Shown here one piece after another: positions 2,562 to 63,207 of a stretch of 64,000 bases of DNA. Both the position numbers and the translations under genes were made by a program. This DNA comes from Candidula unifasciata (Eukaryota > Mollusca > Gastropoda > Stylommatophora > Geomitridae). Location: NCBI GenBank assembly GCA_905116865.2, contig CAJHNH020003149.1, positions 17,264 to 81,263 of the forward strand, read 5' to 3'. Position 1 is the first letter of the stretch. Each line of letters starts with the position of its first letter. A model generated the notes under the pieces. The model had not been told where the DNA came from and did no database searches. It worked only from the letters and a program-made list of their open reading frames with translations.

Positions 2562-2573
2562 GTGGCAACGCTT
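2562..2573 (+). other. Candidate 12-nt micro-exon 1
   Basis: Flanked by a pyrimidine-rich stretch ending TTGTTCACCAG and by donor GTAAGTT. The 12 nt GTGGCAACGCTT would encode V-A-T-L in phase 0. First member of the array described in the findings. The call rests on splice-site sequence and on its fit with the other members; there is no protein homology. Confidence 0.45.
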
Positions 2574-2729
2574 GTAAGTTTACACACTTACGTTCAACTG
2601 AGACCTAACTTTTAATGGATAATGTCCGCTTTTTTTTATTTTCACTAGATGTTAGCGCATCTTTGGCGTAAATGGTTTTATTCCCCTTGGTCTTTAAATG
2701 TATTTACTCAATTTTTTATTGAGCGCATT

Positions 2730-3430
2730 CTGTCTGAATGTTGAATTAGGAATCGGCATCACAGCAGTCGGAACACCCCCATAGGCGCTCCGTCCCCATC
2801 TTCAGCAACAAACGAAGAGTTAAAAAAATGTCGATAGTACCAGTAACTGTCTGATCGTATATCCGTCTCGCCTTTCCCCTGAGTGTGGAGCGTAAACCAT
2901 ATCTCCTTGCCATTCTCCTCAGACCGTAATGATCTATCTGTTCCTTGGCACTGTTCACTCGCTCCCAAAGGGCCCTTACAACATCAGCTTGTCATAAATC
3001 AGTTTACCACCAAGTGGTGCAGAACCGGACAGTATCTGTCTGCTCATGTCCCAACACACCAGCATAACCTGGAGAAAATATCAAAAGGATGCTAACTACC
3101 CGGGACCTCTAAAGTGATGCTTGCCACTTCGCACGAAGCATGCCTGCCTCCACCTTTCTCAGCTTGAATTGTGAGTCAATTACAATCACACGTGAGTACA
3201 GCTAATTCTCAAGTCAAGGAAGGCAGCAGTGACTGCCTCCACCTCCATTTTGTTTAAAGACGTTGTGATAGCATATGCCAGGCTTTGATGCACCAAGCGA
3301 CGTCAATTCGCCTTCACTATGAACCCCCATGCACTTTGTCTGCCTCTCAACACAGAGCCATCTGTATATACAACCACATCACTTGGGCTATAATGGTCAT
3401 TAATCATTTGTTGAACTTCTGATTCTGCTT
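2730..3430 (-). pseudogene. LINE RNase H domain and 3' end (family J copy 1)
   Basis: On the minus strand, about 3372-3355 reads VYTDGSVLRG, the first catalytic aspartate motif of RNase HI as found at the C-terminus of jockey/I-group LINEs. EVEAVTAAF (catalytic Glu region) follows. The IFSPGYAGVLGHEQTD block (expected H-A-G-x-x-x-N-E-x-A-D) comes next with an asparagine replaced. The tail ends LLLKMGTERLWGC. Stops and frameshifts are present. Related copies lie at 9.1, 26.6, 33.7, 53.2 and 56.6 kb. Confidence 0.7.
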
Positions 3431-3435
3431 GTAGT

Positions 3436-4172
3436 TGCTCCTTCTACGACTTAAACTCAAAAAAGTTTACACGCAAGTTAAGACACAGACAGCACGCTAC
3501 AATGTTACCCATTTAAGAGAAAAATACATTGCCACTAAATTTATAGTAGAACTCAAGAATAGATTTCAAACCCTATCAAGTGAGCCAGACACACAAACTA
3601 CTATCAGCATTCAAGACAGAAGAAACCAGATCCAAAAACATACAAATCAACTAGCAATAACATATTAGGAACCAGTAAACAACAACACCACAAAGGATGG
3701 ATAAGTAGTCAAACCATTGACTATATTGCCATGCCTAAAAGAATAAAGAGCCTCATAAATCACACTGAACCAGAACATCAGAAAGACAAACTAATGTTAG
3801 AATATAGCGAACTAAATAAAATGACAATGAAAAGTGCCAGCGCTGACAAGAGAAGATTTAAAGGAAAGCTACCAGAAACAACAGAAAATGCTGCTAAAAC
3901 ACATGATCTACAAACCCTACACAAAATTACACAGCAAATTTGCGGAAACAGAAACAATTATCACAGCATACCTATCGGAGATAACGAAGGCAGACTGCTC
4001 ACCACAAAAACAAAAACAAAAGATATGCAGTGGACTAAACACTTTTCCGACCTCTTGAACAGACCCGATCCTGAAAATCCTACAGATATTCAACCAGCCT
4101 CTCAGGACATTGACATTATTACCGAACCACCAAGCAAACAAGAAATCCTTAAAGCTATCTGTAATAAACTAG
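3436..4172 (+). pseudogene. LINE ORF2, region before and into the RT (first half)
   Basis: The frame has the linker between endonuclease and RT of RTE-like LINEs: RYNVTHL, then ELKNRFQTLSSEPD, then WTKHFSDLLNRPDPENPTDI and EPPSKQEILKAICNKL. The last segment is the start of the RT fingers (consensus EEVxxAIxxLKNNKAPG). It stops abruptly at about 4172, and the rest of the same motif resumes at 5068. The nearby open frames 3435-3668 and 3731-4210 are pieces of this one decayed gene. Confidence 0.7.
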
Positions 4173-5067
4173 TTTGGCGGAATTTATCGTCGCCTGGAGA
4201 TCCCCTATAATCCTTCCCGAATAATTTACAGGGCTCGAATTAAGTAAGTCTAGGGGAATTTTAATGGTCCCTGATTTCTGAAAAAAAAGAAAGGAAGGAA
4301 ATTACAGTAAATCAAATCAATAGGGTGAATCCCCGGAATAGAATGGATTACATAATTATTTTCTCCAAAATTAAAAAAAAAAAAAAAAAACCCAAAGATC
4401 AATACTTTATAAATTTTAACTCAAATCAATTGCAATGAACAATCTTTAGTCTAAACAGAAAGTTAAATTTGATACTATGAATTCGATATTTGAGTTTTCT
4501 AAACAACAACTGTATTGATGAAATACTGTTTAAAAAATTCAACAATCTTCAAATTATAACAGAGAAAATAAATCACGGTTTCATCATTTACACCACATAA
4601 CTCTGAACAAACATCAAATGTCACTCAGCTTTCCGATAGTAGGAATGTGTCGATCTGTAGCTTCTTTGGGAGGTATGGACAAGGTTTTGGCTGCAACAGT
4701 TATAGTACTTGGCTATCTGCGACATTCATCCATGCATTCGGTTTACCCTTCTATACTGTGTGGTTCACGATCCACGGGGTAACAGGAACCTGAAATCGTA
4801 TGGTATTATTATTATTATTGTTTCTTGGGGTTAGGTCGATGGTATGGCTGGGGCTGTCGTTTGGTGTTGTGACGAATGACTAGCTCTAAGGGTTTCTCCT
4901 AGTAACACTACAAAAACGTCATAAGTTATGTGCGCCTTCGTACATTTTCTACTCTTCTCGCGTCTATGTTCCACTATGTTTATTTCAAGTGCGCAATTCT
5001 TTTAACTACAAAATGCAATTAACTCTTGCCGGACTGAAATATTCCGTTGTTTTGTCACACTATCCAC
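4173..5067. mobile_element. Unidentified ~0.9 kb insertion splitting the LINE
   Basis: The RT motif is interrupted between codons for Leu and Lys: left side ends AAACTA, right side resumes AAGAACAACAAAGC. The junction is compatible with a TA duplication. I could not match terminal inverted repeats: the left end begins GTTTGGCGGAATT and the right end finishes CTATCCACACTT. There is no coding potential. It could be a non-autonomous DNA element with decayed ends, or a foreign fragment captured during repair. Confidence 0.45.
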
Positions 5068-9802: not shown

Positions 9803-9811
9803 TTTGAAAAT
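9803..9811 (+). other. Candidate 9-nt micro-exon 2
   Basis: Acceptor context TTTTCAACATTTCCCAG, exon TTTGAAAAT (F-E-N), donor GTAAGTTG. Phase 0 is the only phase compatible with all array members, because the other two phases create stops in several of them. Confidence 0.45.
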
Positions 9812-11264: not shown

Positions 11265-14250
11265 ACTCGATAAATGTAAACGGCTAATCAAGTCAGGTTG
11301 CTAAATCAGTAAAAGAGATTACAGAAGCTATATTAAAAGCAGCCAAAGTAACAATACCTCGGGGTTCAAGGAAAGATTACATCCCATTTTGGTCCCAACA
11401 AATTCAAGACCTCCACCAAACTCTCTCAGAAGCAAGAGATAGAGTAGAAAGCAACCTAACGGTAGAAAACAACATTGCTTACAAAGCAGCAGAAGCTAAG
11501 CTAAAAAAAGAAACACTTCAAGCAACTAGGAAGAGCTGGCAAGACAAAACCAAGAGCCTAAGTTTTGAAAAAGATGGGTCCAAACTCTGGAAACTAGTCA
11601 AGGGTCTAAATGGAGAAGCCCAACAAGCCAATCCAATAGTAATAAATGAGGGCAATGAGATCAGATCTGGAAACGATGCTGCAAATATCCTTTTAAATCA
11701 GTTTAAATCTGTTAGTGATAATAATATAGAAAAGTCCAGAGAAGATGAGGTAGTACAAAGAATAAAAGAACTCGAGGAGGCCAGCAAGAGTAAACCAGCA
11801 GAGAGCATCATGACAGATAAATTTTCAATGAGTGAACTTAACACAGGACTCAACAAGCTGAAATCCAACCAAGCCCCTGGCCCCGATAAAATCACAAATG
11901 ATATGTTACTACACATGGGTCTAAGTGCCAAAAAGAAATTATTAAACATCTTTAATGCAAGCTGGATTTTTAGTATAGTTCCTCCAGCCTGGAGAAAGTC
12001 TGAAATCTTCGTAATCCTGAAACAAGGAAAGCCGAAGAACAACGCAGACAGCTACAGACCCATCAGCCTCACTAGCTGTCTGTGCAAACTATTTGAAAGA
12101 TTATTGAACAACCGACTGACCTGGTTCCTAGAGAAAAACTTCAAACTAATTGAGGAACAGGCAGGTTTTCGACGTTGCAGACCAACAGAAGACCAAATTA
12201 CATTTATTGCTCAACACATTGAAGATGCATTCCAGGAAAAAAAGCACACTATTGCAGTCTGGGTGGATATGGGAAAGGCCTTCGACAAAGTGTGGAAAAA
12301 ATGGGCTGAAACTAAAGCTACTTGAAGGTGGAATATCCCATCACATGCTTGGGTGGATCGTAAAATATCTTGAAAATCGATCTGCAAGAGTCAAGATACA
12401 GGGTTCAAGGAGCAGATCAGTCTCAATGACACATGGAGTTCCACAAGGCGGAGTTCTGTCCCAAATTCTTTTCCTAGTTTACATTAACGACATAAAATCA
12501 ACCCTCTGTAATGGAGTTTAAGCCGTTATGTATGCCGATGATCTGGCGCTACTGAGTTCAGAGGAGGTCACTGAAAAAGCACAGACAAGGCTTCAAGAAT
12601 CCCTCGGAACTCTAGAGAGGTGGTCCAATAGCTGGTACATGCCTGTAAATGGGGCCAAAACCACACAAACCATTTTCAGTCTCTCTACCAAACCCCAGGA
12701 AGTTTCACTTAGATATAGCAGCCAGGCACTGATACATGATGACTCACCGTCATACTTAGGAGTAACCTTTGACTCAAGACTCACATGGAGAAAACAGATA
12801 GAAAAGACACAGAGCAAGGGACTCAAGAGAACACAACTGATGAGGAAGTTAGCTGGAACAGACTGGGGGGCAAACCTCAATGTCCTTAAGAGGACCTATA
12901 CAGGCTATGTGAGGCCAACACTAGAATATGGAATAGCTGCTTGGGGCACAGCAGCTAATTCAAATTTTCAAAAAGTCTCAAAGATCCAAAACCATGCTCT
13001 CCGTATTATGACAGGGGCAATGCGCTCCACGCCCATATCAGATATGGAAACAATTACTGGTCTCCATAATCTGGAAGATAGGAGAGACACAAAGATCCTC
13101 ACCCAGCTCTCCAAATAAAACCACTTTCAAGAACAACCCATGTACAGCCGACTGCAGAAACCCCAGAAGGCTAGACTAAAGAGAACTTGCTTTATTAAGA
13201 ACGCAAATGTCAAGCTCGCTGTCCTTAAACTCCCTCCCATAATACCAAATGTTCCACTTAAACCTTACAACGACTGCCCCACTTGGCTTAGGGATAGCCT
13301 ACCAACAGTCAGAACCACTGTAACAGGGGTCTCCTCCAAATCATCAATGAGCAGCACTGATATGAAATCAACTACAGAAGGAGAGATCAATAGAATTTAC
13401 CCACACCAGAGTTGGATTCGAGTGTATACAGATGGTTCAGCCAAGAGAGCAGTAAGAGACGGAGGAGGAGGAATATACATAGAATGCCCAAATGGTTTAA
13501 AAATCAACCAGGCTGTACCAACAGGTTCATATTCCTCCAATTACAGAGCAGAGGCAGAAGCACTTCTAGCGGCATGTTCTTTTCCTGAATGGACAACAGC
13601 ACAGCAAATATAGCAGAGTGGTCTTTCTGACTGATGCTATGTCAGTTCTACAAGCAATTGTTAACCCAAAAGACACTCAGTTTGTAGACTTGACGCAACA
13701 GCTGATTTACTTAGGCTCTTCAGTAGAACAATCTGTACTGTAGTGGATTCCAGGTCACTGTGGCTTGGAAGGCAATGAAATAGAGGACAGATTGGCCAGA
13801 AGCGGCAGTGACATGGTACAACCAAATAGCGACTTAACCCACCAAGAGATGAAAACACTAATACAATCTAGTATCCAAGAAAGGTGGCTGGATACCCACA
13901 CCAGATTTTCTCCCCAAGACTCACCTAATCGCCTCTCTAGAGAGGGACAGTCTATTATATTCAGACTAAGGACAGGGCACAACAGATTTCGTCAACATAT
14001 GTTCAAATTTTTCGGTGTAGGAAATACGGAGACGTGTCCCTGCAGCGTGGCACCCGAAAATGCTGAGCATGTGCTCCAACACTGTCAACTGTATGCTGAC
14101 AACAGAGACGCAATCTGGCCTGTTCCAACCACAATAAAGACAAAACTGTATGGTACACAAGAGGATATGGATTGCACGATAGCTTTCATAAAGGCTACCG
14201 GCCTCCTGATATAAGTTTTCTGACAGAAGGATCGAAGAAGAAGAAGAAGA
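11265..14250 (+). pseudogene. Jockey/I-like LINE with RT, RNase H and CCHC
   Basis: About 3.0 kb, 5'-truncated. In order it has an RT entry block (SNQAPGPDKITNDML), YRPISLTSCLCKLFERLL, AGFRRCRPTEDQ, motif A (AVWVDMGKAFDKVW), PQGGVLSQILFLVYIND, motif C (MYADDLALL near 12528) and the thumb. RNase H follows (YTDGSAKRA near 13425, AEAEALLAA, FLTDAMSVL, WIPGHCGLEGNEIEDRLA), then a C-terminal CPC...EHVLQHC knuckle. Damage is light: one extra A near 12296-12301, one extra A near 13606, and in-frame stops at 12519, 13116 and 13741. It ends in (GAA)n and is bounded by ACAAGGCATTC duplications. Confidence 0.9.
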
Positions 14251-22463: not shown

Positions 22464-22475
22464 TTTAAAACATAT
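22464..22475 (+). other. Candidate 12-nt micro-exon 5
   Basis: Acceptor TATTTTCTTTCTAACAG, exon TTTAAAACATAT (F-K-T-Y), donor GTAAGTTG. Sits 209 bp upstream of the (CTT)n tract. Confidence 0.5.
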
Positions 22476-22683: not shown

Positions 22684-23279
22684 TTCTTCTTCTTCTTCTT
22701 CTTCTTCTTCTTCTTCTTCTTCTTCTTCTTCTTCTTCTTCTTCTTCTATTTCTTCTTCTTCTTCTTCTTCTTCTTCTTCTTCTTCTTCTTCTTCTTCTTC
22801 TTCTTCTTCTTCTTCTTCTTTTTCTTTTTTTTTTCCCCTTTTTCTTCTTCTTTTTCTTCTTCTTCTTCTACTTCTTCTTCTTCTTCTTCTTCTTTTTTTT
22901 CTTCTTCTTCTTCTTCTTCTTCTTCTTCTTCTTCTTCTTCTTCTTCTTCTTCTTCTTCTTCTTCTTCTTCTTCTTCTTCTTCTTCTCTTCTTCTTCTTCT
23001 TCTTCTTTTCTAGTTCTTTTTTTTCTTCTTCTTCTTTCTTCTTCTTCTCTTCTTCTTCTTCTTCTTCTTCTTCTTCTTCTTCTTCTTCTTCTTCTTCTTC
23101 TTCTTCTTCTTCTTCTTCTTCTTCTTCTTCTTCTTCTTCTTCCTCTTCCCCTTTTTCTTTCTTCTTTTTCTTCTTTTTCTTCTACTTCTTCTTCTTCTTC
23201 TTCTTCTTTTTCTTCTTCTTCTTCTTCTTCTTCTTCTTCTTCTTCTTCTTCTTCTTCTTCTTCTTCTTCTTCTTCTTCG
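22684..23279 (+). repeat. (CTT)n expansion, ~0.6 kb
   Basis: Almost pure CTT triplets with interruptions (T-rich blocks near 22815 and 23010, CCTCTTCCCC near 23140). All three frames are open, giving Ser, Leu and Phe runs on + and Glu, Arg and Lys runs on -. These are not proteins. It is a homopurine-homopyrimidine mirror repeat able to form H-DNA. Confidence 0.97.
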
Positions 23280-23343: not shown

Positions 23344-23352
23344 TTTGAAAAA
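23344..23352 (+). other. Candidate 9-nt micro-exon 6
   Basis: Acceptor TTTTACTGTTGTTTCCATCAG, exon TTTGAAAAA (F-E-K), donor GTAAGTTA. It differs from micro-exon 2 (F-E-N) by one base, the best case for duplication within the array. It sits 65 bp after the (CTT)n tract. Confidence 0.5.
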
Positions 23353-40155: not shown

Positions 40156-40193
<38 letters not shown>

Positions 40194-40418: not shown

Positions 40419-40693
40419 TTTTGTACACTGTTCAATTTTTAAATTTGCTGGTGATCTTGGCCAGGAGTTGTTCAGTGTTTGTTTTTTTGTTAACACAGTT
40501 GTGACCATTCTGGGTCAGTTCTTAGAGTATACTCCTAGGAGTGATTTGTAATCATTGTGGTGTTTTGTGGTGTTCAAGTACATTGGGTTAGGTACATCCT
40601 TGGTTGGTGGAGATAATTTAATCTATTGTTGATTATATTTACATTGTTGGTGACAATATATTTTGTTGTGGACTGTTAGATTGACAAGACAGC

Positions 40694-43600: not shown

Positions 43601-45070
43601 GTAGAGGTTAACCCAACTCTCTCTGTCTCTCAGAAACAAGCTATAGGGCAACTCTTGTCAGAGTACGATTCTGTCCTGACAGAGAAGCCAGGGCGCACTT
43701 CATTAATGGAGTATGATATGACATTGGTTACTGATGAGCCTATTCGTCAACGCCCTTTTCAGATCCCTTTCTCTAAAGAGGAAGCAGTAAGAAAGGAGAT
43801 CGAATATCTACTTAAGGAAGGTGTGATTTCACCCTCAGAGTCCCCTTACAGTGCTAATGTGGTTCTCTTGAGGAAACCTTCAGGTGAGCATCGTCTGTGC
43901 ATAGACTACAGACAACTGAACAGGGTAACGGAATTTCTTCCGGAGCCCCTTCCTGATCAGAGTCATCTGTTTGCCCGGCTCAATAAGGCCAAGTTTTTTT
44001 CCAAAATTGACCTGAGCAAAGGGTACTATCAGATCCCTGTCAGGAAAGAGGTGCGTAAATATTTAGCTTTTAGCACTTCAGATGCCCATTATGAATTTAA
44101 CGTCCTTCCTTTTGGAACTTGCAATGCTCCGGGGGCCTTCACCAGAATGATGAGACTGCTTTTAAACCCCTTGGGGGACCCCTCTATCTCCAATTTTATG
44201 GACGATATTCTGGTGGCTTCCGAGACCTTCGAGGAGCACTTAGTTTCGTTGCAAAAACTCTTACAGAGGTTGAAAGAGACAGGTCTGACTGCCCGACCTA
44301 CCAAATGCAAATTGGCTTGGCGGGACTTGGAGTTTCTGGGGCACACGGTTTCTGAAGGAACCATTAGCCCAGAACCCAAGAACATTGAGAAGCTTAAGAA
44401 AGCTCCTAGACCTACAACGAAAAAGGAAGTCCGTTCCTTTGTATCCCTGTGCGGATATTATCAAAAGTTCATTCAGAACTTCAATTCTATAGCGGCACCT
44501 TTAACAGATGCCACCAAAAAAGATCGTCCTGAGAAGGTATGTTGGACCCCTGAGTGTGAAGACGCTTACCGCACTCTGAAAGAGAAATTGACTTCATCCC
44601 CAGTGCTACAACTTCCGGACTTATCTAAGCCCTTTGTTTTGCGCACTGATGCGAGTGGGGTGGGAATTGGGGCCACAATCCTTCAGACAGGTTTACATGA
44701 TTCTGAGACTCTCTTTCCTGTGGCATATGCCAGCAGAAAGCTCAACCAGGCTGAACGACGTTACTCCTGTATTGAGCGAGAGTGTCTTGCTTTGGTTTGG
44801 AGCGTACAGCGGTTCCAACCTTATTTATATGGTGTACAATTCACGGTACAAACTGACCACCAACCCCTCGTATTCTTGGCATCTTCTACCCATTTGAATC
44901 CAAGATTGATGAGGTGGTCTTTGCTACTGCAACCCTATTCGTTTACTGTGGAATATATTCCTGGTAATCAGAATGTGGGAGCAGATTTCTTGAGCCGCCA
45001 TCCCTTGTCTGATAATTCACAGACTGAAGGTGATGAGCAAGCTGAAAGTAGTGTGTCCATAGATGTGTAA
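40694..45070 (+). CDS. Gag-Pol polyprotein (gag-PR-IN-RT-RH)
   Basis: An intact frame of 1,458 codons; the ATG at 40694 is the first in frame. It has an N-terminal charged coiled coil (about residues 30-100) and a SCAN-like capsid segment (about 184-286, TDYDALCQALLKRFE to YAERYEMAH). The CCHC knuckle is C350, C353, H358, C363. The protease has D413-S-G, but the second motif reads LILGATY. The integrase zinc domain is H589/H596/C626/C629, with the catalytic triad D659, D718, E754 (35-residue spacing) and a GPY module near 894. RT has D1106 (KIDLSKGY) and FMDD 1168-1171. RNase H has D1319, E1363 and D1388. It would encode particle assembly, processing, reverse transcription and integration. 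No frameshift separates gag and pol. Confidence 0.95.
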   Translation: MSQSKISIQELKDMAVQMGLEGKEMTEWIKTTEREMRMEAREAERLRIEAEKESERLRIESERIRETERLRIESERESERMKLEQEVRLRELELQAQREGNRPRSPTPDIDGASTHSSSAQAMNFPMPVFDPKAENIEQYLDRFGKLASLYNLERNMYTLKLAQGLRGEAYEIYQRMPTGTETDYDALCQALLKRFELNAATYRQKFRNERKMTGENYPQFASRLQGYLTRWREMSGYSSSFEDLQEMILTEQLRETLPRPMQTFLTENGADRLSEMLMYAERYEMAHKEVGIGGKPKAQGQGKNNGNGHKTHPNESPKKNSSQAQPQNPSKVQGTQHRQPFNGPKKPYCHICKNNNHWTKECKSKQSGNLQVSALLSTVVPSTQEQLYNGSNRPPVVERVWANGYSLNCLYDSGLSYGCVVRPEFVKPDQYTGRFIELQCATLDAKPLNLPIAKIKVRSKYVSGVIEAAVLEHCTFDLILGATYVFLAEPKKPSEHLAAVTTRAQHKSALEDSPHVNPLPEEIKVAQSSDPTLKACFKKLTASHNPPLKKEFFMKGKLLYRWASDKYTEHSQLVVPKTYRQQILQMGHTIAYSAHMGIHATTQRIACHYFWPGMSADIMRYVKSCPECQKVAPKGRNAPVGLGETPVTSTPFERVAVDLVGPLPLTKKKNAYILTLVDCCSGYPEAVALRRIDSKTVAEALMSIFTRVGFPSQILTDNGSQFKGKLMEEVFQIIKSQHICTSPYRPQANGQNERFNGTLVSLLRRLTQEKPERWDEYLSAALFAYREVPNASTGFPPATLVFGRPISGPLAILRKTWTDEGADDSLKTISQYVQELKERLKLGWDLAKENLIRARKRYAAHFNRKTKERCLEVGDRVLLLLPSGKSKLELAWGGPYTVVEKISRIHYKINIKGKGKSKVYHINLLRKYNEREVSDTPTLLTLSVAMEVEGGEATAVEYPLHPRETYKDVEVNPTLSVSQKQAIGQLLSEYDSVLTEKPGRTSLMEYDMTLVTDEPIRQRPFQIPFSKEEAVRKEIEYLLKEGVISPSESPYSANVVLLRKPSGEHRLCIDYRQLNRVTEFLPEPLPDQSHLFARLNKAKFFSKIDLSKGYYQIPVRKEVRKYLAFSTSDAHYEFNVLPFGTCNAPGAFTRMMRLLLNPLGDPSISNFMDDILVASETFEEHLVSLQKLLQRLKETGLTARPTKCKLAWRDLEFLGHTVSEGTISPEPKNIEKLKKAPRPTTKKEVRSFVSLCGYYQKFIQNFNSIAAPLTDATKKDRPEKVCWTPECEDAYRTLKEKLTSSPVLQLPDLSKPFVLRTDASGVGIGATILQTGLHDSETLFPVAYASRKLNQAERRYSCIERECLALVWSVQRFQPYLYGVQFTVQTDHQPLVFLASSTHLNPRLMRWSLLLQPYSFTVEYIPGNQNVGADFLSRHPLSDNSQTEGDEQAESSVSIDV

Positions 45071-45111
45071 ATGGCTGATCATTTTTCATTCGCGTAGTAC
45101 GCTCTTCCCTT

Positions 45112-45127
45112 GGGGGGGGGGGGGTAC
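45112..45127 (+). promoter_or_regulatory. Polypurine tract
   Basis: A G13 run followed by TAC, immediately before the 3' LTR start TGTCGTGA. Position and purine content suit the plus-strand primer. Confidence 0.7.
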
Positions 45128-46215
45128 TGTCGTGAAATGATAGTCATTACACATCGGTTTAATAGGCTGATAACCTGTCTTACCTGTAATCTGCACAAAA
45201 TTCAAACTTGGACTCGCCCAGAAATATATAGTCCCATATATCTATATATATAGGCCTGTATTGGACAACATTATTATGTATGCCTTTTCTGGTTACTTTA
45301 ACTAAACTCCACTTTTAAATGTATATCTTTTGGGGATATATTTAGGGAGTTAATTGAGGTTTCTTGGAAACCGATTTACTCCTTGCCCCAGTATACAAGG
45401 AACTTCTTTTGTACCAACGCCTGAAATGTCTAACTGACGCCATTCTCCTTGCCAGCTTCTCAAGCCTCCAGATGTGTTAATCTGTGCCTGTATACTTTAA
45501 ATTTTCAAGGCAATCTGAAAAGGTCTCAGTTTTACATATGCTTGGGATGTATATTTTCTGAAGAGCTGGCAGAAGATTCACAGTCTCAACAACATCCACT
45601 CACCAACATCCAACCACCAGAAACAACTTGTTACCCACCAGCTAACACCTGTGAAGGTTCCTGACATCTCCAAAACTGGGGGAGATTGTGCCTCAAACAG
45701 CTACCAGTGCCAGAGCTTAATGTGGCTCAAAGACATTGTGTGTCCTTACAGTTGCTGTATAGTGAAGTACTCTTGCTACTTGATCCAGTGGAACAGAATT
45801 CCCAGAGTCAAAGACAGTCAAATCATCCGGAGCTGAGGGAGGCATCATAGACAGAGATAAGAGAAGATAAGTCTAATGCTTCACATGATGTTGTGTTCCT
45901 CACAGCTCCCTGTGTCCAGTGATGAAAAGATGTCATCTCCAAGGCCTTCTGTCTGTGTAGATCCTAGTGATTTGGACATGATTTCCTGAGATCTGGCAAT
46001 TTGTCTCACTTTTATATATCTAATTTATATTGATTATATACATTCATTTTCATGGCTGACTTAGGTGTCTCTATTTCACCGTTTTTAAGTGTTTCGCAGT
46101 TGTGTATGTATGTGTATCTTCTTTATATGTGTTAACATGGTTATGATAATGAACTATCATAACCTGGGGGCTTTCTTTAGTAAGTAGTGGGGGTGTCCAG
46201 CCAAGTGTGCCTAGA

Positions 46216-46253
<38 letters not shown>

Positions 46254-46435
46254 ACATATTTTGTAGTGCCAATACTTGAGTTGCCCTATTCCAGAGATAA
46301 GTTGATCGTATATTGGCCACGGGGAATCCCTTAGACCAATACGAGCCAAACGACTCAACAAAATTATCTCTGAGTGCTGCTGGTTCTGAAGGAGAAATCC
46401 TTACATTAGGCACGCGACAGGAGTGATATGTGACA
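45128..46435 (+). repeat. 3' LTR of gypsy element
   Basis: About 1,308 bp starting TGTCGTGAAATGATAG and ending GTGACA. TGTC and GACA form the short terminal inverted repeat typical of LTRs. Homologous to 39044-40375 from its ninth base onward. Confidence 0.92.
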
Positions 46436-47181
46436 CCCCGCACGATTTTGAAAAGATTGGATGAGGTGGTCCAATAGAGCTGTCTGCAATTCAAACCACA
46501 TAAGTAGAGAAGTCTCTCAATCCTTAAGGGTAAGGTAGCGGCAACCAGTTTTACAGTGGCAAGGAATCAGATCCCCACGGTTCTAGAGTAACCAGCGAAG
46601 AGCCTTGGTCGCGTCCTCAATTCGAAGTTATCTGACAGAGCGGAGGCTCGGCGCATACACGAGTCACTGGCTACAGGCCTGCTCGCAATCGAGCGAAGCA
46701 GGCTGGTCAGGAAGTTCAAGGTCTTGTGTCTATAATTTATGTTGATTCCAAAGCTCATCTGTTCGCTGCTAGTCTACAAAGTGTCGATGACTGCAGTGGA
46801 GACGAGGGGGCGAAAAATCAACACATCCATGAGGAAGTGGATTGATTCAACGCCTTATCTGACTGACGTGGTTCTGTATTGTTAACAGGCCAAGCTGATA
46901 CTCTTGTTCAAATCAATAACCGAAGAGTTTAAAGTAGGCGAAGTAAGGCTCGCTATGCTCTTGCGCGAGTCTTTAGACCCAACCGTCACTGCTGTCCAGT
47001 CCGCTCTAAAGACCGGCCTGAAGTGGAAGGTCCTAGATGCGCTAGAATCTGCCAAGAATGCACTAAAACTTAAGGAAGTCATGGGTTACACTAAAACCGA
47101 GCGTCGAGACATAGGGCACAGGAAAGTCAATTGGTGGTCCAATGCTACAGCCAAAGAGCACCGAGAATGTGAGTCGTGAAC
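46436..47181 (+). pseudogene. LINE family P, post-palm region after the LTR element
   Basis: It begins RTILKRLDEVVQ, then RSLSILKG-like sequence, IPTVLE, AKSLGRVLNSKLSDRAEARR and LLAIERSRLVRKFK. The open piece 46904-47179 then reads SITEEFKVGEVRLAMLLRES, TGLKWKVLDALESAKNAL and HRKVNWWSNATAKEH. These follow the RT active site in family P. About 200 residues, including the catalytic palm, are missing relative to the left half at 39044. It is cut off by an antisense LINE at about 47182. Confidence 0.75.
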
Positions 47182-47535
47182 TATTTTTTGAGGTCACTGA
47201 TGAAAAGATTAAGCAGGGTAGGAGATATAACACTTCCCTTAGGGACACCTTCTTGTAACCTGACCAGCTTGCTCTTGTAATCTTCCAGTCTGACTCACGC
47301 ACAGCGTCTGTAAAGGAAGTCTTTAATCCAGGCAAACATATGCCCTTTTATCCCAGCGTGTGCTAGTTTTAGCAAGAGTCCTTTCTCCCAGACCTGATCG
47401 AAGGCTTTGGTCAGGTCGAAGAAAGTAGCTAACAGTTTGTATTTTTTAATGGAAAGCGTCTTCAGTTTCCTGTGCGAGATAAGAGGTTTAGTCATTAGTG
47501 CTTCTGTATCTCCTGAAGCCTGATTAGCTGCCATC
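47182..47535 (-). pseudogene. Jockey-like LINE RT palm fragment
   Basis: The minus strand reads YKLLATFFDLTKAFDQVWEK (motif A), GLLLKLAHAGIKGHMFAWIK, DFLYRRCA, and in a second frame VRLQEGVPKGSVISPTLFNL (motif B). It ends before the YADD motif. Truncated on both sides. Distinct from family P. Confidence 0.75.
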
Positions 47536-47539
47536 CAAG

Positions 47540-48008
47540 ACTTTCTATTTGTTGGATTTGTTGTTTCTATCTTTTCAAAGTTTGTTTTCCTGTTTGGAAT
47601 CTTGAAAGTTAATGGGGTTCAATCCCATGGGATATTTAGTCAATTACTTGGTATATCTCTTAGTTAATGCAGTGCATGCTGCTGTTCTCGCCTCATGTTC
47701 TGTGTGGTCGTAAACATTATGTCTTTTTAAGATTTCGAGCAGCTTCTTTCAACCATTTCAGAATACAAGTCATCTATTTCCTGGTTTCTACTTATCACAT
47801 TCAGCTAACGATATGATATTTATCCCCGTGAATTTTATCTGTTATCACTTGACTCCTATCCGATTTTTAGAATTATGAACGTTTAACGAATGCTAAACTC
47901 TATGTGAGCTTTTTGGGATCTTTTTTTTTCTATTTATCACTCGATGTTTAAATCCTAGGACAACAAAATAATCCTGAGATGCTTGATGATATTTTCATAA
48001 TTTGGCAT
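47540..48008. other. No gene recognised
   Basis: AT-rich, without domain or repeat motifs. Confidence 0.35.
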
Positions 48009-48055
48009 GGTGCGTGTGTGTGTGCGCGTGCGTGTTTGCGTGCGCGCGTGCGTAT
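48009..48055. repeat. (GT/GC)n alternating purine-pyrimidine tract
   Basis: GTGTGTGTGCGCGTGCG-type sequence of about 47 bp with little interruption. Strong Z-DNA-forming potential. Confidence 0.85.
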
Positions 48056-48065
48056 TTAATGGATA

Positions 48066-48419
48066 TTGTGCAAAACTGTTTTAATTAGTTATATTCGTGT
48101 GTTTATAATTTTAATGACCTTACTTCACCATTTCATTCCAGAAAACATTAATACGACATATGCATTCACATACTTTGTTTTCAGTGGAAAGACGTTTAAT
48201 AAAAAAACACTGAGGAATTGGAAAGAGCAGGCATTACAGTCACATTTTCTTTGCTCAGTGTCCGAAGACTCAAATGTTTTGGGTCAACTGGAGAATGGAA
48301 TCGGGTCTCTTTACATGAATTATGGTGATATTCCTATGTGTACAAGATGGAAAGATAAGTCTCTATTGCGTTGCCAAGATTTGTTCGAGCGGGACTTGAA
48401 AAAGTATAGAATGCCTTGA
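48066..48419 (+). CDS. Hypothetical ORF, possible exon
   Basis: 117 codons, no recognised family. Residues from about 40 onward (FSGKTFNKKTLRNWKEQALQ, then FLCSVSEDSNVLGQLENGIG, CTRWKDKSLLRCQDLFERDL) have normal amino-acid composition, unlike the low-complexity ORFs. A good acceptor-like TTTGTTTTCAG lies at about 48183-48193, but the frame open after it is phase 1, not the phase 0 of the micro-exon array. It may be an exon of another gene or a pseudogene remnant. Confidence 0.25.
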   Translation: MCKTVLISYIRVFIILMTLLHHFIPENINTTYAFTYFVFSGKTFNKKTLRNWKEQALQSHFLCSVSEDSNVLGQLENGIGSLYMNYGDIPMCTRWKDKSLLRCQDLFERDLKKYRMP

Positions 48420-48439
48420 AAAGTGCTGAATAGAGGGAA

Positions 48440-48662
48440 CACAGATTTTTTGTTTTTTGTTTGTGTTTCGAGAAGCCATGAGTTGTTAACCCTTAGGCTC
48501 GGTATAATGGAAATCGCAACCACTCGGCCTTGATTCCATGATGGATACTGTAAATCTAGGAGAAATGTGACTTTTCTGCCTCCGCCGGACGTGAAACCGG
48601 ACAAGGAGTTCGTCACCCGATCGTCGCGAAGTGAGGTTTAGCTAACTACGCTAGCGAGCCGG
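48440..48662 (-). mobile_element. tRNA-derived SINE, family S4 copy 1
   Basis: The minus strand starts with CGCTAGCGTAGTTAGCTAAA, an A-box region, and continues through a decayed B-box. The body shares ACTCCTTGTCCGG, CCTAAGGGTTAACAACTCATGG and related blocks with the 49.1 kb copy. Confidence 0.65.
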
Positions 48663-48922
48663 ACAGGGGATACGGAAAAAGGACACCACTTTTCTTGAAA
48701 TCAGTTTGTGGACAACATGTCTTAACGCGAGTGACTCTTTATGAAACCACTGAAATCCCATGCTTCTATTATGAATTGCTTTCCCTCTAAATGCAGCATG
48801 GTCTTGATGGTCACACTCGCCCACCTTAGATTAAAAAGCAATATTCACTTTTAGTAACAGTCTATTGTATAGACACTAAATGTACTAATAAATGTTATTT
48901 AAATACTTTTTTTGTTTGTTAG

Positions 48923-48931
48923 AGGACCCCG
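48923..48931 (+). other. Candidate 9-nt micro-exon 12
   Basis: Strong acceptor AAATACTTTTTTTGTTTGTTAG, exon AGGACCCCG (R-T-P), donor GTAAAT. It was found after noting that the 12/9 alternation predicted a 9-nt exon between 35.1 and 51.5 kb. It lies between the two family S4 SINEs. Confidence 0.42.
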
Positions 48932-49094
48932 GTAAATACTATTGCATATCAATTCTCTGTCAAATGATTGTGTGCTATGGATGTGTATAAATCGATACGA
49001 GAAACAGAACTAAAAATATTTAAATTTGTGATACTGATTATTTTGTTCCATGCGCATAGAGTGTTTTTATCATCTATGTTAGACAATATTGTTG

Positions 49095-49308
49095 TTTGTT
49101 GTTTTAGTATCCAGAAGCCATGAGTTGTTACCCTTAGGCTCGGTATTATGGATATCACTACCTTCCGGCCTTGTTTCCATTGTAAATACCGTAAATCTTT
49201 GAGAAAATGTAGCTTTCCTGCCTACCCCGGATTGAACCCGGACCACAAGGAGTTCGTCACCCGGTCTCCGCGCAATCAGGTTTACCAACTACGCTAGAGA
49301 GATGGGCC
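49095..49308 (-). mobile_element. tRNA-derived SINE, family S4 copy 2
   Basis: Better preserved than copy 1: minus strand CTAGCGTAGTTGGTAAACC (A-box) and CCGGGTTCAATCC (B-box) at normal tRNA spacing, then the shared body ending TAACAACTCATGGCTTCTGG. Same orientation as copy 1, about 430 bp away. Confidence 0.75.
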
Positions 49309-49329
49309 TAAATGTGTAATAAAAGTCAA

Positions 49330-49935
49330 TGGTGTTATTTTGCTGTTATTTTGGGACAAGTACATAAATTTAGGTATCTGGGCACATGGGTAACATCAGA
49401 TGGAGGATGCATTACTGAAATAAGAAACAGAACAGGACAGACAAAAACTGCATTTTATAAAATCAAGAACATCTCATGCAATATATCTGTGTCATTGAAG
49501 GTTGGAAAAATAATTCTTGCCTGCTACATACATCCAGTTTTAACATACGGCTGTAGGTTCTGGACAATCAGTAGGCAGGCCAAACAATTTCTTGAGGCCT
49601 CAAAGATGTGGTTTTACAGAAAAATGCTTAAAATACCTTGGAAGGTCACACACACAAAAAAGCAACCAAGAAGTTTTGATAAAGGCGGGAGCAGGAAAAC
49701 AACTTCTCACAGACATCAGAAGGAGACAGTCATCATTTTTTGGCCATGTTATAAGATGAGGGAAAATGGAACATGTGGTGACCACTGGAAAGATATGTGG
49801 AAGAGAGAAGATTCTTGACAGTCTTGTTGAAAGGCATGGAGGTGTGTCAGCACATAAACTAATACATGCTGCAGGAGATCGCAGATTGTGGAGAGGCATA
49901 ATCGGCGGGACCGTCGGCAAAGCACCTGATGATGA
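49330..49935 (+). pseudogene. LINE post-RT and C-terminus with GAT tail
   Basis: The frame 49312-49818 reads FRYLGTWVTSDGGCITEIRN, GQTKTAFYKIKNI, HPVLTYGCRFWTISRQAKQF, WFYRKMLKIPW. The C-terminus continues in another frame (ILDSLVERHGGVSAHKLIHA, GDRRLWRGII) and ends in GAT repeats. It is closely related to 18480-18925 and reaches further 5'. Confidence 0.75.
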
Positions 49936-50022
49936 TGATTCACTATTCGTATTCGGCCGAATAGTTGGTCCAGCTATTCGTATTCGGCCGAATAGTGAAA
50001 ATCACTATTCGGTACAGCCCTA
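49936..50022. mobile_element. hAT-like terminus, family H copy 2
   Basis: CACTATTCGTATTCGGCCGA repeats and the end CTATTCGGTACAGCCCTA match the termini at 17760 and 19052. No left terminus found upstream. Attached directly to the LINE GAT tail, as in copy 1. Confidence 0.65.
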
Positions 50023-50284
50023 ATATATATATTTATATATTTAAACTAGCCCCTTTCCGTCTTTCCGAACGATAGGGATATATTGTGCTGCAAGGAGCCA
50101 TCGGTCTCACAGTCCATGTCAGGTTTAAAAAAGAAACCCAAGCGCGTTTAAAAAAAAAATGTTGGCCACAGGTATAAGCACGAGATTTCAAGACTATTGT
50201 TGTTAACATTTGTGTTTTGTCTTTTTCTTCTCAGACGCTCAGTTCTCATCCTTTTTGTAATCTGTTATTCTCTTTTTCTCGTTC

Positions 50285-50945
50285 CCTTCCTTAAGTGCCC
50301 CCTCCCCAAAACTCGATCTATGGCATTTTTTCTCACGTGTCTACCTTAATAGCTGTTACGTTTATGTCCTGTTTCAACACATCTTTATATTGTAGCAGAA
50401 GTCGGCGTCAACATCTTCTATCCATCTTTTATTCACTATTGAGAATGTCCTTAGTAACTCGGCTATCCTCCATTCCCTAGGTGTGAACCTGCCTCCTGTA
50501 CCTTCGTGGACTTAGCATTGAGAAAATATTTTAATACCTGCTCATTCCTATACCTGCTTTTATCCTGGCCTGTCACACAATGCCAAGTATTCTTTTTAGG
50601 CATGGCATGTGAAGGCTGTTTAGCGGTTTCTCCTGTGGCGAATACGATGACCAAGTTCACTTCCATAAAGCAGAGTGCTGAAAACAGAAGCCTGTTAGAA
50701 AATTATTTTTGTATTAATCTTGAGCTTTCTGTTCTAACAACTCTTTTGTTCATCTGTTCATTGTTGTTGCTGATGATGATTACTTGGTCCAGCGATAGTT
50801 TCTTATCCACTGTGGATCTCAAATAGGTAAAATGGTCAACTGTCTCCAGCTCTTCACAATCATTGTAGATTGCAGGTCGATCATTAACACCTTGCGCATA
50901 AACTGTTGTGTTCTTTCTGTCCTCATAATAAATCCGAAAAAAAAA
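50285..50945 (-). pseudogene. LINE post-RT and tail
   Basis: The minus strand reads NDRPAIYNDCEELETVDHFT YLRSTVDKKLSLDQVII, then in other frames FMEVNLVIVFATG- and HAMPKKNTWHCV-like remnants and LQYKDVLKQDINV. The order fits the ITINGxxLxxVDxFxYLGS to RYKDxLKxNL region of endonuclease-RT LINEs. Heavily decayed. Confidence 0.6.
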
Positions 50946-51074
50946 AAAAACACTGACTGGCAACCTCTAGTCGATAACTCTCTAAAACTTTAATAAAGAA
51001 TGAGAGATTAGTAAATACAAAATATGTTCATTGCGTCTTCTAATACCAACATACGTGTCACCATAGTTAATGTG

Positions 51075-51330
51075 AGAGCTGCCTGATGTAGCAGCTAGAC
51101 GGCAGCCTGCAGGTCAAAAGGTTGTGGGTTCACGTCCTGAGCGATCCGGACTTTTTTGTTTGTTTGATTGAGTACCTTGGCTCAGCCTTGAATGGATACC
51201 AGGTGTAGTCATGAAAAGTAAAGGCAGCCGGCGTGATGCTGACCACAGAGTGCCAATTTAGAATATAGGTCTAGCCCTGTGTGCCCAATACTCATGATGG
51301 CATGGAAAGGGTGCTTTACTTTACCTTCAC
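51075..51330 (+). mobile_element. SINE family S1 copy 4
   Basis: The head includes GGTTGTGGGTTCACGTCCTG (B-box). The body has CTCAGCCTTGAATGGATACC, AAGTAAAGGCAGCCGG, GTGATGCTGACCACA and the 3' end GGGTGCTTTACTTTACC. Confidence 0.75.
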
Positions 51331-51546
51331 TAACAAGTTCGTGCTGCTTTTAGTTGTTGTTGTTGCTCAGAAGGTAAAGATTAATTATTCATTTAAAAAA
51401 AAAATATATACGGATTCAAATTCAAGACTGTCGGGCCGACGGGCTTAGGACTGGCCGCGCTCCTAAGAGTACATATAATGTTAACGAATATTAACGTTTG
51501 ACGCAAAATTGCAAATAATCTCCATTTTACTGGTTCCATCCACCAG

Positions 51547-51558
51547 GTGGTCGTAATT
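51547..51558 (+). other. Candidate 12-nt micro-exon 13
   Basis: Acceptor ACTGGTTCCATCCACCAG, exon GTGGTCGTAATT (V-V-V-I), donor GTGAGTTA. Micro-exon 1 has the same CACCAG|GTGG junction. Confidence 0.48.
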
Positions 51559-57058: not shown

Positions 57059-57067
57059 ATTAACCTA
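57059..57067 (+). other. Candidate 9-nt micro-exon 14
   Basis: Acceptor TTTTTACTATTGTCTTTCCACCAG trimmed to TTGTCTTTCCACCAG, exon ATTAACCTA (I-N-L), donor GTAAGTTG. The acceptor is nearly identical to that of micro-exon 7. Confidence 0.5.
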
Positions 57068-58994: not shown

Positions 58995-60021
58995 GTATTT
59001 TTAAACCCTCCCCTACCCACGGCCCCTTGATTATATTGCAAGTCTCCCCTTCCCCACGACCCCTTGTTTATATGCAAGACCCACCTCCCCACGGCCCCTT
59101 GTTTATATGCAAGATCCACCTCCCCACGACCCCTTGTTTATATGCAAGACCCACCTTCCCACGACTCCTTGTTTATATGCAAGACTCCCCTCCCCACGTC
59201 TCCTTTTATATATGCATGACCCACCTCCCAACGACTCCTTGTTTATATGCAAGACCCACCTCCCCACGACTCCTTGTTTATATGCAAGACCCACCTCCCC
59301 ACGACTCCTTGTTTATATGCAAGACCCACCTCCAAACGACTCCTTGTTTATATGCAAGACCCACCTCCCCACGACTCCTTGTTTATATGCAAGACTCCCC
59401 CTCCCCACGACTCCTTGTTTATATGTAAGACCCACCTCCCCACGACCCCTTGTTTATATGCAAGACCCACCTCCCCACGACTCCTTGTTTATATGCAAGA
59501 CCCACCTCTCCAACAACTCCTTGTTTATATGCAAGACCCACCTTTCCACGGGCCCTTAAGTATATGGCAAAATCTTCATGATCACCCCTCCCCCTTCCCC
59601 CGTTCTCTAAAATAACAAAATGTGTTTAAAAAGAAAAGGACAATAAATTTAGAAACTAAGAAAACAGACAGTATTTAGATAAATGTTTTGTCGTAATCTG
59701 TTCCCAGTCTATAATTAAATGGCTGTGAAATCATAGTATTCATATTTTTAACTGTAGCTATACAAATTGTTTAAGAAAACTAACAATGTTCTTAGCTTTT
59801 CGTTTCATAAAAATGTAAAACATGATTTTATTTTTTTTATTTATCATTAAACTCAAAAAAAAAAATGATATAACGGAATATTTTAAATACATTTGAATGT
59901 ACTTTTAAAATCACTTCCGCCCCCCCCCCCCCCACACATCACCTTTTTATTCCACAAACACATGTTCAAACCTTCACGCATTCCCCTATGGGGACGCGTG
60001 CCCTTAATTTTGAGACCTCTG
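58995..60021. mobile_element. hAT-type MITE family M copy 2, minisatellite-expanded
   Basis: The right end GACGCGTGCCCTTAATTTTG then AGACCTCTG resembles the right end at 8622-8654 (GACGCGTGCCCTAGGCTGGA then GACCACTG). Both carry AATACATTTG blocks and a poly-C tract before the right end, and TATATTGCAAG motifs in the left half. The left terminus is not recognisable, so no target-site duplication can be tested. Confidence 0.55.
59025..59562 (+). repeat. 35-bp minisatellite, ~15 copies
   Basis: The unit is CCTTGTTTATATGCAAGACC followed by CACCTCCCCACGACT. Because 35 is not a multiple of three, each copy shifts frame, so all three forward frames stay open across the array (ORFs of 122-150 codons). 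These ORFs are repeat artefacts. Units differ by a few substitutions. Confidence 0.92.
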
Positions 60022-60233: not shown

Positions 60234-60245
60234 ACTCAGAAAAAT
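60234..60245 (+). other. Candidate 12-nt micro-exon 15
   Basis: Acceptor CATATTAATATTGCCTTCTACAG trimmed to TTGCCTTCTACAG, exon ACTCAGAAAAAT (T-Q-K-N), donor GTAAGTTG. Confidence 0.5.
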
Positions 60246-61318: not shown

Positions 61319-61439
61319 ATGAAAATTAACATAACCATGAGAATTTGGCTTGGAGTGTCGCTGTGTCTGACCGACCTGGCTCATTGTTGTAAAAAGGCGT
61401 ATCTGGTACTTTCTTTTAAGTCGAAGTTATTTTAGCTGC

Positions 61440-61880
61440 ATACGATGTGCCACTCTCAGGCGCTAACTTGATCATTATGGCGTGAGACAAACGACCTGAC
61501 ATGTTCCTTGTACAAAGCAAAGCAAAGGCTCGATCACGTTTTGTCTGTTGTGCAGGAAAGCTTTGTGTCAGGGGTGGTACACACATTGTCAAAACAAAGT
61601 CTTGAAAGAGTTGGCAGACATTTTAGACAGAGCCAAGATGAGAGCCAATGCAAGGGCCAGCCCTTGTAACCTCCCATCCCCCTCCCTTGTTTGTTTTTTC
61701 TCCACCCTTGAGTTTCCTCACGGCTGGGCAGATTTCTTCATCCATCCCTCCTCTGAGCTGAGCATGAAGTACGAGAGTGTCTAGGAGGTAAACGGGCTCA
61801 ACCATGTGTCGACAGGGACTCCTACTGAAGATCGGTAGGCTCCCTTTATGCATGCTCCAGTGGTGGAGTTGTACATCTAA
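61440..61880 (+). pseudogene. LINE family P knuckle and 3' UTR (copy 4, part 2)
   Basis: In two frames it reads CRKALCQGWYTHCQNKVLKE then LADILDRAKMRANARASP, homologous to 36790-36920. It then jumps to the shared 3' UTR end (CGACAGGGACTCCTACTGAA, GATCGGTAGGCTCC, CATGCTCCAGTGGTGGAGTT). About 0.7 kb of the copy is deleted between these. Confidence 0.65.
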
Positions 61881-61995
61881 AGTAAGAAACATTTTAGAAG
61901 AGGGAAAACAGAGTGTATCTTATTTTTTTTTTTTATTCAGATAGCTTCATTTTTGTGGCTGATATGTGTCATGTTCATATATTTTTTTCACGCAG

Positions 61996-62004
61996 ATTCA
62001 GAAC
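61996..62004 (+). other. Candidate 9-nt micro-exon 16
   Basis: Acceptor ATATATTTTTTTCACGCAG, exon ATTCAGAAC (I-Q-N), donor GTAAGTTG. Confidence 0.5.
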
Positions 62005-63192
62005 GTAAGTTGCAAATTATACACTTTCCTTCTGATTCTTGTTCCTTGTCTGTCTGAAACTGGATGCTGTATCTATTTTTTTTCCCCCTAATCTATAAAG
62101 GAACTGTCATGTGACCTCAGATTGTTTGCTATGAGCGCAATTGATTCAGTACACGGATGTCTAAATTACTGCCTGTCTATGCCCAGCATTCATTATGTTC
62201 TTATTAATTCTTGGACAAGGTTCTCATAACATTAAAATCCCTATTATTTGCCTCTCCCTACCCCCCCCCCCCTCTCGATTTACCAGTACGTGGTTATGCA
62301 TATCACATTGTTGATGTTTCAAACAGCTATCAAAATGTCTAACTAATCGGAACGCTTTGGAATAAACATATCAAGAAAATATATACAGCCCATGAAATAA
62401 AAATAGTTTCTTTTTTATTGTTTCCCTTCCAATCAACCTTATTGGTTACGAAAATCGTGATAACATCTGATAAGCAATAAATTGGAGATTTTAGCCTATC
62501 TCTTAGTGACATTTCCCATCGTCTATTAAATTATGTTTTATATATTTTGCTGTTTATATATGTGTGACTTTTTGGTGTTGCCTTTTCATCATTTTCATTG
62601 TTTCTATCTTTCGCTCTCTGTATGTTTGAGAGAGTGTGTGTGTCGTATGGCAGTTTTGTCGCGCACCTTTACTTATGGATTATTTTCCCAAATCCCTCAG
62701 GTTCTCTGAGACAGGGATGTTTTGAATGGTGGTTCTCGTTCGTCTAGAGGCCTAACCCTCGGTTCAAACTTCCCATTCAATCTGTCTCAGGAATGAGGTG
62801 ACTCGAGCTCTGATTCCACAGGGTTACTATGAACTCTTGGGTACCTCTCGGCCAGACATCCCCATTACTAAATTTGCCCCCAGACTGGTAAACAACGTAA
62901 CACAGTCAAATATATAGACAACAGTGAATATGACAAGACATGAATACCTTTCTGACTACGACAATTGATGCACTAACACCAAACCTTTCGAAGAACAGAA
63001 AGTCTTATGAACTAAAACTTCAATGTATTCAATACTTCAATACGAGAAAGATTAAAAGTAGCACGAAGAACTAGAATGATCGTTCAAGTCTTTGAAGAAT
63101 AAAGGATAGAGAAAAAGTATTTCTACACTTTTGGAAAGCAAAAGACAGATCTCTATCATTTCCCCCCCCCCTTAATTAACCCTTTTCACTAG
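62005..63192. other. No gene; possible tRNA-like piece
   Basis: It contains poly-C at 62260-62274 and 63161-63171 and a tRNA-like block near 62735-62770 (TCGTCTAGAGG then CTCGGTTCAAACTTCC). The latter may be a SINE head but has no second copy here. Confidence 0.3.
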
Positions 63193-63207
63193 TTTGGAAA
63201 AATAAAG
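63193..63207 (+). other. Candidate 15-nt micro-exon 17 or terminal exon
   Basis: Acceptor TTAACCCTTTTCACTAG, then TTTGGAAAAATAAAG (F-G-K-I-K) and GTATAG. If not spliced, the phase-0 frame reads one more codon and stops at the TAG, so this could be the terminal exon. Weak donor. Confidence 0.25.

Follow-up and report, generated by a model that had tools for sequence, protein, structure and literature searches.

The window analysed here is a stretch of 64,000 nucleotides (nt) of contig C3146 in a 1.34-Gb genome (G000:C3146:17264-81263; the contig ends where the window ends). It carries a core set of 13 plus-strand segments, each 9 or 12 nt long and each lying between an acceptor and a donor signal. 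Named by their phase-0 translations, these are, in order, VATL (12 nt, 2562-2573, with an AG acceptor and a GTAAGT donor), FEN (9 nt, 9803-9811, the weakest core site, with a GTAAGTTG donor), FKTY (12 nt, 22464-22475), FEK (9 nt, 23344-23352), FLTL (12 nt, 26373-26384, the top-scoring site of the window), LFE (9 nt, 28306-28314), AFKA (12 nt, 30733-30744), GDK (9 nt, 32669-32677, GTACGT donor), NPQL (12 nt, 35095-35106, GTGAGT donor), VVVI (12 nt, 51547-51558, GTGAGT donor), INL (9 nt, 57059-57067), TQKN (12 nt, 60234-60245) and IQN (9 nt, 61996-62004, GTAAGTTG donor). Adjacent starts are spaced 0.88-16.5 kb apart, and the longest interval (35107-51546), which holds a long terminal repeat (LTR) retrotransposon, divides the peptide between NPQL and VVVI. 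A branch-point-like motif accompanies 10 of the 13 core sites, compared with a fraction of 0.45 of random 34-mers, which is suggestive only. The window probably represents the inner part of a micro-exon gene, and in its spliced phase-0 peptide each exon is predicted to make up roughly one turn of a helix that is amphipathic.

The core set was chosen by eye from a list of strict and relaxed sites, before any regularity in the order of lengths had been noticed. A strict rule, requiring a GTAAGT, GTGAGT or GTACGT donor and at least 14 pyrimidines in the 20 nt 5' of the AG, yielded six sites of 9 nt, five of 12 nt, and one each of 8 and 24 nt on the plus strand, with none at the remaining 18 lengths in the range of 6-27 nt. 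The minus strand gave three sites in total (7, 17 and 25 nt) and none of 9, 12 or 15 nt, which agrees with a preliminary description of this DNA in which no comparable minus-strand set was seen. The same description had proposed scoring the sites against shuffled sequence, and in 200 dinucleotide-preserving shuffles (1-kb blocks) the mean number of strict 9/12-nt sites was 0.305 and the maximum 3, against 11 observed. Ten of these 11 belong to the core set; the core sites at 9803, 30733 and 60234 fail the strict rule with 12-13 pyrimidines out of 20. When each core site was scored with itself left out, against 25,957 AG..GT pairs from the two strands, each spanning 3-60 nt (pairs using a core acceptor being excluded), 7 of 13 outscored all other pairs and 12 of 13 outscored all other 9/12-nt pairs. 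The weakest, 9803 (leave-one-out score 13.3), was equalled by 42 pairs, two of them of 9/12 nt. Generic splice frequencies, applied without a trained matrix, gave six 9/12-nt sites at a threshold of 9 compared with 0.095 in shuffles, as well as five sites at other lengths.

About 17 sites of 9, 12 or 15 nt had been described at first, and the core set of 13 was drawn up without that list. Neither the 15-nt class nor the last site described finds support here. The strict rule admits no 15-nt site, and two are admitted when the pyrimidine cut is lowered to 12/20; the top-scoring 15-nt site by matrix (40499, score 18.9) has a phase-0 stop, and the last site described (63193, 15 nt, ending at 63207) has a donor score of -2.7. 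That all lengths were multiples of three was built into the earlier search, whereas the prominence of 9 and 12 nt stands regardless of it.

The core lengths follow one another as 12, 9, 12, 9, 12, 9, 12, 9, 12, 12, 9, 12, 9. Length switches at 11 of the 12 steps, which is equalled by 13 of the 1716 possible orderings, and the sole break falls in the longest interval, the approximately 16.45 kb from NPQL to VVVI; only 2 of the 1716 orderings have no break or a break there. Phase 0 is free of stops in all 13 core exons, as had been claimed. Reading at either of the other offsets meets stops, in 2 and 5 exons respectively, a contrast that is weak in the window by itself (chance 0.086). The 17 kb upstream on the same contig provided unseen DNA. 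A matrix trained on the window and applied to C3146:1-17263 found only three 9/12-nt sites scoring at least 7, namely WTD (2809, 9 nt), LEKA (8332, 12 nt) and FYE (13780, 9 nt), all on the plus strand, and no 9/12-nt site at this score on the minus strand. These three carry the 12/9 alternation on into VATL. Their scores are 18.3-28.2, and the other upstream pairs of 3-60 nt scoring at least 14 were four on the plus and two on the minus strand (14.3-16.8). The untrained strict rule likewise gave two sites of 9 nt and one of 12 nt in this stretch and no other site of 6-27 nt on either strand. WTD is the most upstream segment seen, and the 5' end of the gene was not found in this stretch. One further 9-nt site at position 152 of the window (RMG) was left out of the core because of its poor acceptor score (-2.8); it would also break the alternation following FYE.

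A second array was found elsewhere in the genome. A search with a genome-wide 12-nt pattern (an acceptor and a GTAAGTTG donor around 12 nt) returned 30 matches compared with 18 for the reversed pattern used as control; seven contigs with at least two matches, on a single strand in each, account for 19 of the 30, and 11 are solitary. The corresponding 9-nt pattern gave 26 matches, mostly solitary, against 14 in the control, and a GDK pattern with 3 mismatches gave six against eight, of which only the best two (on C3146 and C1061) lie in arrays. When the DNA flanking FEK was used as query, the window came first and C1061 second among the best 40 of 1711 candidates, with one short self-match; the remaining of the 41 rows match only a repeat at query positions 419-509.

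Contig C1061 carries the segments LAGL, FQQA, LKN, YLTK, LNE, ARNV, AKK, YPQQ, IKL, YVL and TKND, and the eight successive lengths from FQQA to IKL are 12, 9, 12, 9, 12, 9, 12, 9. Ten of the 13 window exons have a collinear homologous flank there, with 72-82% identity and expectation values (E) of 1e-10 to 1e-135: VATL corresponds to LAGL (E 1.5e-64), FKTY to FQQA (E 2.8e-48), FEK to LKN (81% over 517 columns, E 3.5e-135), FLTL to YLTK (E 1.2e-10), LFE to LNE, AFKA to ARNV, GDK to AKK (E 2.9e-114), NPQL to YPQQ (E 3.4e-69), INL to YVL (E 2.8e-81) and TQKN to TKND (E 1.9e-85). The stretches matching VVVI and IQN lay outside the comparison. In C1061:85601-105600 all six plus-strand 9/12-nt pairs scoring at least 7 belong to the FQQA-IKL series, and the strict rule gave two sites of 9 nt, three of 12 nt, no other length and nothing on the minus strand.

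A third array, on C2803, reads IPEF LDD FESS LLT TIKE FEK (12, 9, 12, 9, 12, 9), with a further 12-nt segment found by pattern; the pattern searches on this contig gave NEQN, LND and FRR. The flanks of LLT and TIKE match those of LFE and AFKA, and the remaining pairings with the window are by order only. The strict rule gave two sites of 9 nt, three of 12 nt and one of 6 nt in C2803:65001-85000 and none on the minus strand; two weak additional 9/12-nt pairs on this contig contain stops. As both C2803 and C1061 were picked by pattern hits, the exons hit by the pattern are not independent evidence; the C1061 tiles from 85601 to 105600 contained none of these hits. Since C3146, C1061 and partly C2803 are related, the alternation in the three arrays is inherited and does not amount to three independent events. 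The FKTY site (22464) was also matched by pattern on C4218, where one matching segment, LEQL, was seen. Together with C132 (SSNV, LEVI) and C6616 (FQHF, FNLL), C4218 carries one or two window-like 12-nt sites, and these three contigs are candidate additional members of the family.

Within the window, local flank likeness was found between 22464 and 26373 (E 2.5e-6) and between 9803 and 23344 (E 0.005), and seven flank matches between contigs fall off the diagonal (E 8.8e-9 to 4e-4), five pairing exons of one length class. Birth by duplication of a 12+9 unit found no support from ungapped flank identity, which was 0.353 within and 0.370 between length classes (p 0.926). Other micro-exon-like sites were noticed in the same genome. 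C1837:40000-137500 holds a plus-strand micro-exon array of another kind, in which segments of 12 and 18 nt are numerous (e.g., TNDP, GRGI, DRVP, PANKTT, AANARK, AANATK, LNEKLA, MKDFLK), where the strict rule gave nine 12-nt sites and 11 sites of other lengths on the plus strand and five on the minus strand, none of these of 12 nt; the 18-nt segments at 100579 and 110650 resemble duplicates. On the minus strand of C89, an identical 12-nt IDEI with its splice frame occurs at 572859 and 573229, 370 bases apart, possibly a recent micro-exon duplication.

The arrays on the three contigs bear on whether the window sites are real at all. Chance matches to the splice consensus in AT-rich intergenic DNA, selected by eye, do occur in isolation, as sites 152 and 40499 illustrate, and several of the solitary genome-wide pattern matches have phase-0 stops. 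Such an origin is nevertheless hardly credible for the set as a whole: apart from the excess over shuffled sequence, it is refuted by the repeat of the set in unseen DNA and by the collinear paralogue. The arrays also address the possibility that a long non-coding RNA is spliced from the segments, with which the lack of any visible start or stop codon would agree. Not one of 36 exons of C3146, C1061 and C2803 contains a stop in phase 0, against 6 and 12 exons in the other offsets (probability of a stop-free phase 0 in random segments 0.0013). With lengths that are multiples of three and the heptad signal described below, this makes a non-coding product very unlikely.

The place at which the alternation breaks is occupied on C1061 by a 9-nt exon, IKL (C1061:103330), and the corresponding 9-nt exon was not recognised in the window. 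In the interval 35107-51546 no match to the IKL flank is better than E 0.9 (the best in the whole window, E 0.07, lies at the FEN acceptor) and the top 9-nt site scores 6.8, while C1061:102968-103029 does match window 36590-36651, inside this interval. The window copy of a genuine micro-exon gene could be dead, e.g., after insertion of the retrotransposon and loss of IKL, as the IKL-less interval of about 16.4 kb contains the LTR element. The 16 exons of C3146, however, comprise 56 codons without a phase-0 stop, and the ten window/C1061 pairs also speak against a dead copy. Splice signals (231/280 identical positions) are kept slightly better than flanking introns (2113/2691, 78.5%), and exons are less alike than introns (70/108, 65%; Fisher p 0.0013, with sites that are not independent), a divergence above the intron rate that loss of constraint alone does not explain. 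We regard a dead copy as decidedly improbable.

Among the 36 paired codons, 10 are the same, 3 differ synonymously and 23 non-synonymously. Introns show about three gap openings per 100 columns, while the ten exon pairs show no length difference, although equal lengths are favoured by the way the pairs were made. What is kept while the residues change is the layout, together with the hydrophobic class of each first residue, and the exons may be under diversifying selection, for which these comparisons provide modest evidence. As the first residues are not clearly better kept in identity than the others, the comparison shows conservation of a hydrophobic class rather than a slower-evolving inner face.

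The alternation has a simple structural counterpart, as a 12+9 pair encodes 4+3 residues and hence the seven of a helical heptad. At the heptad angle, the exons have a larger hydrophobic moment than reshuffled residues (p 0.00085 for the 13 window exons, p 0.0002 for the 16 exons of C3146), and control peptides from other pyrimidine-rich AG sites give p 0.0007-0.001 for the window. The moment peaks at 102-103 degrees in the window and at 98-103 degrees in all three arrays; on two scales the p values are 0.022 and 0.005 for C1061 and 0.026 and 0.015 for C2803. In the window exons a hydrophobic first residue is favoured on a hydropathy scale (p 0.003). In the exons upstream on C3146 and those on C2803 the first residue is hydrophobic in 10 of 12, compared with 4 of 29 other residues (p 5e-5), and with C1061 added the counts are 18 of 23 against 10 of 57. 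Exons of 4+3 residues that tend to open with a hydrophobic one, as in an amphipathic or coiled-coil helix, were found in the window and also in these out-of-sample exons upstream and on C2803.

Several observations weigh against a helix-encoding micro-exon gene or against parts of this reading. Neither a start nor a stop codon was seen, nor a signal peptide or a convincing exon of ordinary size, and no homologous protein was found in a protein database, PDB or Pfam. The signals of FEN are weak and the exon has no counterpart in the C1061 stretches examined, with 367 bases between two loci not covered. There is no recognisable copy of IKL in its interval, and the helix moment (1.262 vs 1.198) is about the same whether or not an exon is taken to be missing there. 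In the C1061 tiles, pairs of 3-60 nt scoring at least 12 number 27 on the plus and 6 on the minus strand, and six of these are in the array. The first-residue class test in the window only is modest (9/13 vs 11/33, p 0.03), first residues are identical in 4 of 10 window/C1061 pairs compared with 9 of 26 residues elsewhere, and the excess of non-synonymous (pN 0.38) over synonymous (pS 0.26) change comes from few sites and carries no significance figure. A final point is the proline in NPQL and YPQQ, which would break a helix at this place.

Some of these points, namely the proline in NPQL and the low identity of the first residues, would be expected if the gene were genuine and its peptide non-helical, with the 12/9 alternation an accident of shared descent; the arrays are indeed related, so that the alternation is inherited, and the p values of C1061 and C2803 are separately modest. 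Yet 23 of 36 codons have changed non-synonymously while the first residues of the out-of-sample exons have stayed hydrophobic, and the moment peaks at nearly the same angle in all three arrays. A non-helical product therefore appears unlikely.

Alternatively, the segments could belong, as small exons of its interior, to some known conserved gene of the muscle or neuronal type, in which micro-exons are common. Open candidates of ordinary size are present, e.g., at window 57306 (189 nt, score 13.6) and C3146:13556 (48 nt, score 14.3); such candidates are few, however, and score below the core. Within the window, exons of 18-300 nt gave 21 open candidates on the plus and 19 on the minus strand, none of them convincing, and symmetric candidates open in phase 0 numbered three on the plus strand (two being longer readings of the AFKA exon) and two on the minus strand. 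In a protein database, an X-padded joined peptide and a padded alignment (A2) each produced one candidate and none at E 10, in a search that requires shared 5-residue words and applies a length filter. Against PDB the joined peptide gave no match in one search and a best E of 0.9, to a de novo protein, in another. A2 gave six rows (best E 0.65), five of which are a 12-residue match to calmodulin (E 0.94-1.8) that was judged to be chance. Pfam gave no match to the joined peptide. As the exons also diverge fast, an origin from a known conserved gene is exceedingly improbable.

The preferred reading remains a micro-exon gene with a helical product. On the evidence of these sequences, the segments would be spliced and translated, and the 13 in the window would be joined in phase 0 into one helical protein with about one turn per exon, the 4+3 units being heptads in which each exon's first residue probably lies on a buried or membrane face. 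Skipping of a 12+9 pair would remove a heptad cleanly, while skipping of a single exon would keep the frame and rotate the remaining helix. The earlier suggestion that any exon can be skipped without a frameshift holds for the frame, with the difference that a single skip would shift the helix register on the present reading. By analogy with known systems, the product may be a small, fast-evolving and possibly secreted helical peptide acting on membranes or partner proteins. The idea of a micro-exon gene put forward in the preliminary description is well supported by splice-framed segments on one strand with one open phase, by further segments in unseen DNA and by a paralogue; its observations are confirmed in part and its interpretation is supported in part; new beside it are the 12/9 alternation, the register of helix turns and the existence of a gene family. 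More tentatively, it is conceivable, if somewhat short of an even chance, that these genes form a gastropod family in which each exon is a helix turn starting at a core position, that splicing acts as a helix-building code in which pairs add or drop entire heptads and single exons turn the helix face, that the exons diversify under selection faster than the introns, and that the system was invented apart from that of schistosomes. If true, a case in a likely gastropod with exon sizes tied to the alpha-helical repeat would directly test whether exon boundaries can track the secondary structure of a protein down to a single turn of helix.

The remainder of the window is rich in repeats. The LTR retrotransposon occupies 39044-46435, inside the interval missing a 9-nt exon; its LTRs (39044-40375 and 45136-46435) are 96.9% identical and enclose one open gag-pol-like frame (40694-45070). 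Two pieces of it searched against Pfam gave a SCAN-domain match and an integrase. By eye the integrase lies ahead of the reverse transcriptase, an order known from Gmr1-like elements. In the remains of an element of the long interspersed nuclear element (LINE) type at 11288-14214, Pfam recognises a reverse transcriptase and, below its cut-off, weakly matches RNase H. The reverse transcriptase piece (12522-13115) has 37 database matches, and the six with an organism name are to Elysia marginata (3), Pomacea canaliculata (2) and Plakobranchus ocellatus (1), all of them gastropods, which bears out the earlier impression of a mollusc-like genome. Two long TTC/GAA trinucleotide arrays, with some 200 copies in each, at 22684-23278 and 28485-29162 lie within about 0.2 kb of predicted micro-exons (23344 and 28306, respectively), and 59012-59550 is taken up by a 35-bp minisatellite (about 15 copies, 90% matches).

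Blood flukes provide the best-known genes built mostly of micro-exons, and aphids provide an insect counterpart. No micro-exon gene of a mollusc was found among the matches listed for open-access titles and the starts of abstracts, a scope outside which most subscription papers and all preprints lie. Exons of 9 nt tend to be missed by gene callers and aligners, so such families may be widely overlooked. We assign the locus to neither known group, because it departs from them in exon size and phase and the database searches found no sequence relation.

In parts of two reports, the micro-exon gene (MEG) families of schistosomes, e.g., MEG-26, MEG-9 and MEG-12, are described as having many tiny exons, mostly multiples of three, separated by kilobase introns; the exons are 6-81 bp long with a majority of 15 bp, and the genes form families, some of them fast-diversifying and several with predicted amphipathic helices (PMC10526429, PMC5825161). 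The array described here resembles them in its very short predicted exons of multiples of three, its long introns and its membership in a gene family. It differs from the 15-bp majority given in those excerpts, as its core exons are of 9 or 12 nt, and it has a 12/9 alternation that the same passages do not mention. Its likely host is a gastropod. No sequence match to MEGs was found, in searches that included no direct comparison with a MEG sequence. MEGs of the schistosome type are further marked by an N-terminal signal peptide, a secreted product and isoforms made by exon skipping; in the present array no signal peptide was seen. For aphids, the portion of the report drawn on here describes bicycle genes with many small internal exons, almost all in phase 2, whose structure is retained as their coding sequence changes and shows signs of positive selection, and a 'megacycle' gene with more than 100 micro-exons (PMC9168663). 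Many small internal exons of a single phase are shared with the present array. Unlike in bicycle genes, this phase is 0, the only stop-free one among the 36 exons, and a helix-turn register goes unmentioned in those passages on bicycle genes. If the reading given here is true, a gastropod case beside those of blood flukes and aphids would suggest that genes of this type arise repeatedly.

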